Shown here: positions 62,026-63,065 of the stretch, one piece after another
Layout of the letters: each line of letters starts with the position of its first letter
How positions within the stretch are numbered: position 1 is the stretch's first letter
IMG/VR virus record: IMGVR_UViG_3300027659_003120
Span: 1 to 64,000 of that record
DNA from: a virus
Length of the DNA stretch: 64,000 nt
Reading direction: 5' to 3' (one strand)
Notes under the pieces: generated by a model
What the model saw: the letters and a program-made list of their open reading frames with translations, nothing else
The model's database searches: none
What the model was told of the DNA's origin: nothing
Translations under genes and position numbers: made by a program

Positions 62026-62228
62026 TGGTTGTTGAATATATTATGAGAATAATTAAAGAAAAAATTGTAGAACTAAAAAATATATACTCTGGAGAGATTG
62101 TTTTCTCTAGTAATTTGTATGAAAAAAGAGTTGATGGCACAATGACATTTATTCAAGTTTATAAATCGGAAGATCCGCAAAGAAAATATCTTGTAAATTC
62201 TGCTGCGTTTGTAAAAGTGCATAAATAA
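62025..62228 (+). CDS. Small hypothetical protein after regA
   Basis: This 67-residue, basic protein starts at ATG 62025 overlapping the regA stop (62043 is an alternative). It contains IVELKNIYSGEIVFSSNLYEKR and YLVNSAAFVKVHK, with beta-rich character. No family is recognised. Its last codons (CAT AAA TAA) form part of a late-promoter octamer, so its 3' end has a regulatory role for what follows. Confidence 0.6.
   Translation: MVVEYIMRIIKEKIVELKNIYSGEIVFSSNLYEKRVDGTMTFIQVYKSEDPQRKYLVNSAAFVKVHK
62220..62227 (+). promoter_or_regulatory. Late promoter upstream of the structured RNA (CATAAATA)
   Basis: CATAAATA spans the stop codon of the small gene and would start transcription about 62233, at the first base of the structured, higher-GC segment. 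It is the same octamer variant as at 4232 and 34915. Confidence 0.65.
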
Positions 62229-62232
62229 AAGT

Positions 62233-62352
62233 ACCCACCTTAGGGCTGTTTGATGCTACGGTATAAGGCGTCCGTGTAATTACACCTTCAGTACGTTAAT
62301 CTGGACCAGTATAAGGTAAGCTGGAGTTATGCCTTCGGGATAACATTTTTTT
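62233..62352 (+). ncRNA. Candidate structured non-coding RNA or leader with intrinsic terminator
   Basis: This ~120-nt gap has no ORF, looks more GC-rich than its surroundings, and is dense in hairpins. ACGG (62258-62261) pairs with CCGT (62272-62275). GTGTAATTACAC (62274-62285) is a perfect palindrome competing with it. CCAG (62306-62309) pairs with CTGG (62321-62324). The first and last hairpins present the same loop word TATAAGG. A terminator hairpin ends the unit at 62326-62352. Late promoter at the 5' end, terminator at the 3' end: either a free-standing phage RNA or an attenuating leader of the phasin-like and Hsp20 genes. It does not fold as a tRNA and matches no RNA family I recognise. 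Confidence 0.6.
62326..62352 (+). terminator. Intrinsic terminator with UUCG tetraloop
   Basis: GTTAT (62326-62330) plus CC pairs with GG plus ATAAC (62340-62344), with one bulged G, around a TTCG tetraloop, followed by A and seven T residues. A typical stable rho-independent terminator placed 29 bp before the next start codon. Confidence 0.88.
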
Positions 62353-62380
62353 AACTTGCTTTTTAAAGGAGAAAACAACT

Positions 62381-62596
62381 ATGTTGTTATACGCAAACAT
62401 GGCTATTGATGCGATTCAAAATGCCAAAAATACCTTTCTTGACAACTCTGTTAAGGAAGAATCTATTAAAAAACCACTCAAAGCATTTGTTGAATCTCAA
62501 AGAGTATTCACTAAACAAATAGCTAAGTCTTTTTCTGATATAACTACAGCATACTCATCATATGATTATGCTAGTATCTTTAAACCGACTAAGTAA
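62381..62596 (+). CDS. Phasin-like small helical protein
   Basis: This 71-residue protein has a strong AAAGGAGAA ribosome-binding site. ANMAIDAIQNAKNTFLDNSVKEESIKKPLKAFVESQRVFTKQIAKSF is an amphipathic helical pattern close to the phasin family, which coats polyhydroxyalkanoate granules in bacteria. It ends with a short tyrosine-rich tail (YSSYDYASIFK). It is paired with Hsp20 in the same short operon, and both have the same TTTTTAAAGGAGAA ribosome-binding region. A chaperone-like coating role is possible; evidence is by pattern. Confidence 0.65.
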   Translation: MLLYANMAIDAIQNAKNTFLDNSVKEESIKKPLKAFVESQRVFTKQIAKSFSDITTAYSSYDYASIFKPTK

Positions 62597-62615: not shown

Positions 62616-63065
62616 ATGACATTGCATAAATTTACACACCTGTATCCTTCGGTTGTTGGATTTGATAGACTTTTAGATACCTTTGATAATATGTTATCTG
62701 AAAAACCTACAACATTTCCACCACATAATATTATTAAAATTGATGACAATAATTATTCTGTTGAACTAGCAGTTGCTGGTTTCAATGAAGATGAAATTAG
62801 TGTTGAAATTTTAAAAGGTAATTTGACCATCAGTGGCACAAAAAGAAAAACTGAAGGAGAAACAAATTATCTATATCATGGAATTGGCGTTCGTTCATTT
62901 CAAAAGAATGTTAGATTAGCTGATACTGTAGAGGTTGCAGGAGCAATTTTAGATAATGGTATTCTTACTGTGAAACTTGTTAATATTACACCGATTGAAA
63001 AACAACCGGTAAAAATTGCAATTAAAACAGTAGGTAAAACTCAACTTTTGCAAGAAAGAGTTTAA
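62616..63065 (+). CDS. hsp20: Small heat-shock protein Hsp20
   Basis: Start ATG 62616 has AAAGGAGA five bases upstream; an earlier in-frame reading lies inside the phasin-like gene. 149 residues. The alpha-crystallin domain runs about 38-125: IIKIDDNNYSVELAVAGFNEDEISVEILKGNLTISG, then YLYHGIGVRSFQKNVRLADTVEVAGAILDNGILTVKLVN, with the DNGIL motif. Hsp20 genes are common in marine T4-like phages and may assist capsid or scaffold assembly. Regulated with the upstream late promoter/RNA element if that leader is read through. Confidence 0.93.
   Translation: MTLHKFTHLYPSVVGFDRLLDTFDNMLSEKPTTFPPHNIIKIDDNNYSVELAVAGFNEDEISVEILKGNLTISGTKRKTEGETNYLYHGIGVRSFQKNVRLADTVEVAGAILDNGILTVKLVNITPIEKQPVKIAIKTVGKTQLLQERV

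Follow-up and report, generated by a model that had tools for sequence, protein, structure and literature searches.

ROSE-like elements are defined by a U(U/C)GCU sequence that pairs imperfectly, leaving a bulged G, with the Shine-Dalgarno (SD) sequence in the last hairpin of the leader, and they usually precede small heat-shock genes (PMC3669281, PMC11342760). In the ROSE_3 family (Rfam RF02523) and Pseudomonas ibpA (PMC3669281), as in the leader described here, two consecutive hairpins each carry a bulged G after a pyrimidine, U(U/C)GCU being paired to the SD in the second of them, and a small heat-shock protein operon is controlled (putatively so in the present case). The present leader differs in belonging to a phage, in lying behind a T4-type late promoter and in being preceded by a pseudoknot domain; in addition, its score against the family model is below the cutoff and its first gene is a 71-aa ORF without a Pfam match (see below).

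RNA thermometers have been reported in phages for lambda cIII, for SPbeta blyA (a fourU element) and for sigma70 of a gut Caudoviricetes (PMC11182007, PMC10586365), that of SPbeta being counted as no more than the second of its kind in phage genomes (PMC11182007). They share with the present leader a temperature-sensing structure at the start of a phage gene (here a predicted one), but they are not ROSE-like, do not precede chaperone genes and are each a single case, whereas the ROSE-like motif is nearly universal before the phage hsp20 genes examined here. No ROSE element in a phage was found in the open literature, subscription papers being outside the search and priority therefore uncertain. 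The hsp20 gene belongs to the core genes shared by all T4-like cyanophages compared, and help in capsid maturation has been guessed as its role (PMC3037559). Two papers on cyanophage small heat-shock proteins mention neither a thermometer nor a 5'UTR (PMC3827213, PMC5028025), and there is apparently no prior study of how cyanophage hsp20 is switched on.

The DNA analysed here (the window) comprises positions 1 to 64,000 of the 91.8-kb IMG/VR virus record IMGVR_UViG_3300027659_003120. An original prediction, made from its letters, had proposed an undescribed structured RNA between a late promoter and a terminator, which would be either a free RNA of about 120 nt made late in infection or a leader of the two genes that follow. 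What it had observed was confirmed overall; of its interpretation, the structured RNA and the leader role stood, and the free RNA, the terminator and a repeated binding site did not. The RNA is real, an mRNA leader rather than a free small RNA. We put at about 0.78 the probability that this segment forms the 5' leader of an mRNA made late by the phage, in which a ROSE-like thermometer guards the operon of the 71-aa ORF and Hsp20.

Layout of the leader and its operon

The T4-type late promoter, CATAAATA, is present as claimed at 62220-62227 on the plus strand (to which all the features described below also belong), and a transcription start is predicted near 62233, one nucleotide before the first hairpin, P1. 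In 137 of 193 relatives a late-promoter-like box is found no more than 230 nt before the SD motif, compared with 129 of 1910 random stretches. No ORF of at least 60 aa occurs in 62229-62380, in line with the ORF-free stretch that had been noticed there, and the segment is indeed richer in GC, with 46% over 62233-62344 where the window as a whole has 35% and the flanks have 29-30%, a level that is notable, not extreme, because 7.7% of 112-nt windows reach it. A check against Rfam gave no family at the curated cutoff for the segment, and a separate search found no tRNA or tRNA remnant.

The segment is the leader of a two-gene operon, which agrees with the second of the two roles proposed for it. 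The first gene is the 71-aa ORF (62381-62596, from the ORF list), which had been labelled phasin-like, a label without support in Pfam, as neither this ORF nor its varied relatives have a match at cutoff; the second is hsp20 (62616-63065, 149 aa; PF00011, E = 1.2e-16; PHROG 432, E = 2.3e-31). In freshwater phages the ORF is steadily placed ahead of hsp20, which suggests that the two function together. The genes of the window run from regA through one small ORF, the leader and the 71-aa ORF to hsp20, an order close to that of several named cyanophages, S-SSM6a, S-CAM7, S-CAM1 and S-CREM2 (L407, L408, L411 and L413), in which regA is found directly before hsp20; the proximity of regA and hsp20 is an old shared neighbourhood.

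Using the 71-aa ORF as a query, 53 related loci were found, and pattern scans of IMG/VR added many further leaders. The gaps of these relatives contain, in this order, a late promoter, one or more pseudoknots, a bulged-G hairpin, the sequence ACTCGCTTAn AAGGAG and the start codon. A low-stringency similarity search of a phage collection with the leader DNA gave no match. The motif site occurs once in the 91.8-kb record, at 62355, and most of the larger relatives that were searched with a model of the leader gave a single copy; a dispersed small RNA or repeat was also considered and rejected, the segment being single copy in the genome of the window.

The last two hairpins and the ROSE assignment

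A ROSE signature opposite the SD, overlooked in the original prediction, lies just beyond the interval described there. This hairpin (P5, CUUGCUUUUUAAAGGAG, 62355-62371) has the form CUU-G-CUU(UUUA)AAG-GAG, so that the U(U/C)GCU sequence faces the SD (62366-62371) around a bulged G (G62358). It is preceded by P4 (62326-62344), GUUAU-G-CC(UUCG)GG-AUAAC, with a bulged G at 62331, which corresponds to the first ROSE hairpin; the two to four 5'UTR hairpins of a ROSE element are represented by P4, P5 and the upstream helices, and the small heat-shock gene downstream is the second of the operon in the window and the first in most cyanophages. In S-CREM2, UUGCC is found opposite GGGAG, a natural compensatory change, and in S-CAM7 the same SD hairpin is closed by UUCG. 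The ROSE_3 model aligns over its full length (69 model positions) to 62323-62386, both bulged G included, with a score of 18.2 bits (E = 0.043 in a search of 81 bases), while relatives reach 28.0 (Atu_ph07), 28.9 (L199) and, for the best phage relative, Melnitz-1, 34.1 bits (E = 5e-4); the curated cutoff of 43 bits was reached by no sequence scored. Because its score is below this gathering cutoff, the leader of the window is ROSE-like by its motif and not a member of RF02523. Although the window has UUUUU near the SD, it is U(U/C)GCU and not UUUU that the relatives keep, which argues against a fourU element. The hsp20 leaders of two jumbo phage contigs (L324 and L325, of 245 and 215 kb) read CUUACUUUAAAAGGAG, a natural variant in which A replaces the bulged G of the ROSE motif.

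P4 is also the UUCG-capped hairpin that had been taken for an intrinsic terminator, and it is indeed followed by seven T in the window, where they make a plausible terminator and where some termination is possible. Across the relatives the combination of a hairpin with a U-tract is not conserved, since a run of at least five T follows P4 in only 38 of 166 (23%); what is conserved is the bulged base. P4 was recognised in 166 of the 193 leaders, with G as the bulged base in 166/166 and a pyrimidine before it in 163/166, in spite of 92 different outer strands, and in nearly all relatives a distance of 7-16 nt separates it from the U(U/C)GCU/SD hairpin that follows. P4 is the first hairpin of the ROSE pair, and the element always stands before the same operon, most of the genomes searched having a single copy. 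That a free late RNA of some 120 nt is made and ends at this UUCG hairpin is highly improbable.

P4 does not touch the SD, and a bulged G retained in 166 of 166 cases is more than mere folding would need. This would be understandable if the two bulged-G hairpins were mainly a binding site that lets Hsp20 repress translation of its own mRNA, in the manner of E. coli IbpA, which acts via its 5'UTR, and if unfolded phage or host protein titrated Hsp20 away and so induced the operon, whether or not temperature is also sensed directly. E. coli IbpA represses translation of its own mRNA through R93, in the crystallin domain (PMC10474464), and an equivalent arginine is present in 110 of 110 aligned phage Hsp20 proteins, that of the window included. 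This arginine is, however, common in proteobacterial IbpA generally and therefore says little about self-repression, and the U(U/C)GCU/SD core accounts for repression by itself; we regard self-repression as the main function as a possible but less likely explanation. It is compatible with a thermometer: both layers coexist in E. coli and, by analogy, both may operate here.

The conserved anatomy of the leader, its covariation, the pairing of its SD and its near-exclusive linkage to hsp20 operons were established by computation. As regards the linkage, the gene following CTYGCTTn(0-7)AGGAG was hsp20 or the small ORF that precedes it in 184 of 193 distinct cases (many of the relatives are close kin, and neither the motif counts nor the covariation changes given below are independent events). 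Of the 111 distinct cases that a gene-blind scan with ACTCGCTTAn(0-5)AAGGAG gave, 103 led to hsp20 or the partner ORF, and among the other eight were two cut-off Hsp20 starts and one DnaK. When loci were chosen blind to the motif, CTYGCT..AGGAG was found before 105 of 123 hsp20 or partner starts and before 0 of 71 other SD-led ORFs (Fisher p = 2e-36, with related rows); most of the 18 starts without it are those of an hsp20 that comes second in a two-gene operon. Among the cyanophage-type Hsp20 loci selected by single-protein scans, 72 of 73 carried the motif. Most of the named isolates that were read have it, namely P-SSM2, P-SSM4, S-SSM5, S-SSM6a and S-CAM1, together with S-CAM7, S-CAM8, S-RIM2, S-M1 and Melnitz-1. 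Matches of CTTGCTGG..AGGAG within the coding sequence of cyanophage hsp20 were discarded as chance.

The same kind of leader is also present in bacteria: hsp20 genes of SAR11 (L296 and L300), of a Rhodospirillaceae MAG (L294) and of a Burkholderiaceae MAG (L305) are preceded by a bulged-G hairpin and CTCGCTTA/SD, as in the phages, and this likeness suggests exchange between hosts and phages. A contig binned with a Bacteroidota (Lewinella) MAG (L298) carries a cyanophage-type hsp20 with its leader and is probably phage contamination of that bin. CTCGCTT..AAGGAG was furthermore seen on the minus strand of two contigs classed as viral, before a DnaK gene (L262, position 9108) and before a peroxiredoxin-like gene (L179, position 4874); these contigs may be host DNA or hold phage copies.

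The upstream pseudoknot domain

The domain upstream of P4, 62234-62324, is composed of P1, two tandem H-type pseudoknots and a further hairpin, P3. P1 (CCC-ACCUUA-GGG, 62234-62245) stands at the predicted 5' end; ACCTTAGG is kept in all aligned relatives, and in the short-type relatives two of its four pairs changed on both sides. Pseudoknot a (62246-62272) is formed by CUGU (62246-62249) with ACGG (62258-62261) and by GAUGC (62252-62256) with GCGUC (62268-62272), and its pairs occur as CUGU/ACGG, CCGU/ACGG and CCGUU/AACGG; in L018 an automatic search recovers the same pseudoknot, above 60 of 60 random controls. Pseudoknot b (62273-62305) is formed by CGUG (62273-62276) with UACG (62292-62295) and by UUCAG (62287-62291) with CUGGA (62301-62305), and the palindrome that had been pointed out, GTGTAATTACAC, lies within it at 62274-62285. 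Its crossing helix varies in a compensatory manner (CGUG/UACG, CGGG/CCCG, CGAG/CUCG), a gap having kept it out of the column-wise count, and its second helix is the strongest covarying one, with 6/6 pairs changed on both sides and 98.8% paired. The loop-closing pair of P2 is U-A in 14, A-U in 11 and C-G in one of the sequences. P3 (CCAGU-AUAAGGUAA-GCUGG, 62306-62324), the loop of which ends with a conserved GUAA, is 100% paired and shows a compensatory A-U/U-A/C-G change, while in P4 four of seven pairs changed on both sides.

Taken over 28 aligned leaders, the four helices P1, P2/S2b, P3 and P4 are 98% paired, and 13 of 22 pairs changed on both sides, against a shuffle mean of 6.0 (0/500 as high) and 0-7 in slid controls. 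In the subtype of the window itself (8 distinct sequences) 99% of the cells are paired and the covariation score is above all shuffles, the number of pairs changed on both sides being matched by 161 of 500 shuffles. Nested minimum-energy folding of the segment shows no excess stability (z = 0.22), a value that is expected if pseudoknots carry much of the fold, and the case for structure rests on comparison, in which covariation exceeds all shuffles. These compensatory changes in relatives bear out the claim of an undescribed structured RNA behind the late promoter: judged by its strong covariation and by the lack of an Rfam match for 62234-62324, the pseudoknot domain is a new RNA structure.

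Two copies of TATAAGG, starting at 62262 and 62310, are the only ones in the window, as claimed; the first lies in a pseudoknot loop and strand and the second in P3, mostly in the loop. They had been proposed as a repeated binding site, which is contradicted by most relatives, in which both copies do not occur together. The loops of P1 (CCUUA) and P3 (UAAGG) could form a kissing interaction of 5 bp in the window, but the bases hardly vary and so offer no covariation, and L018, which first seemed to be a compensatory case, carries a different pseudoknot there; the interaction is no more than a possibility.

The domain precedes the hsp20 operon in 71 of 71 complete leaders collected and hsp20 operons in every clear case, and its conserved loops (UACCUUAGG, ACGNUA and AGUAA) are found in dozens of freshwater phage contigs. 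Other phages have a different pseudoknot in this place, or none, and for this reason the domain is considered accessory. The pseudoknots of the relatives are either of the window type or H-type ones such as CUAGG-C-UGGUA-C-CCUAG-UAAAAAC-UACCA. The leaders L007-L010, L015-L017, L022-L038 and L044-L051 are without the window-type domain and have other H-type pseudoknots with A-rich loops directly after a 5' hairpin ..GGGATGGGAAC, with stems that vary widely and are still complementary. The T4 gene 32 leader likewise has, close to the 5' end of the mRNA of a T4-type phage, an H-type pseudoknot whose loop is A-rich; the likeness is limited by the different gene and by the tandem arrangement of the pseudoknots in the window.

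It is conceivable, if rather unlikely, that the leader is a two-input device, in which 62234-62324 would sense a further signal and cooperate with the ROSE-like hairpin in controlling how the chaperone operon is translated; this signal could be a ligand, Hsp20 itself or another protein of the phage or the host.

Temperature and control of the chaperone operon

According to the preferred reading, the last two hairpins (62326-62371) would act as a ROSE-like RNA thermometer. When the temperature is low, U(U/C)GCU would pair with the SD around the bulged G, excluding ribosomes, and heat would open the weak SD hairpin, so that the chaperone operon is translated. The part formed by 62234-62324 would be an extra structure which, as a guess, probably protects the 5' end of the late mRNA or lets the thermosensor fold independently. 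As the thermometer of the window precedes the partner ORF, control of hsp20 would need co-transcription or coupling.

At 15 °C the computed pairing of the SD has a median of 0.85, compared with 0.56 for control leaders, which belong to other SD-led genes in these loci; the comparison is not independent of the motif because the controls exclude CTYGCT leaders and pairing follows partly from the motif. On warming from 15 to 42 °C the leaders are predicted to lose no more of this pairing than the controls do (medians of 0.07 and 0.06), and SD pairing in the window barely changes over this range, in a model that handles bulges and non-canonical pairs poorly. Since computed melting equals that of the controls, the temperature response is one that we infer from the motif and its gene linkage.

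That melting does not exceed the controls would agree with a leader that merely stabilises or insulates the late mRNA, its SD pairing being a constitutive tuning of translation without temperature sensing. The predicted start immediately before P1 is in favour of such a role, as are the different pseudoknots with which the relatives' leaders of the same operon begin at the same place. It leaves unexplained, however, why a bulged-G U(U/C)GCU is found almost only before heat-shock genes, both in phages and in bacteria, and why ROSE_3 aligns over its full length, and we consider it improbable compared with a ROSE-like thermometer.

ROSE-like leaders before hsp20 span cyanophages, a methylotroph phage and freshwater phages. 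If the proposed thermometer is true, this family of ROSE-like thermometers would be the first to be described in phages, and very abundant viruses would sense temperature directly through RNA, late in infection.
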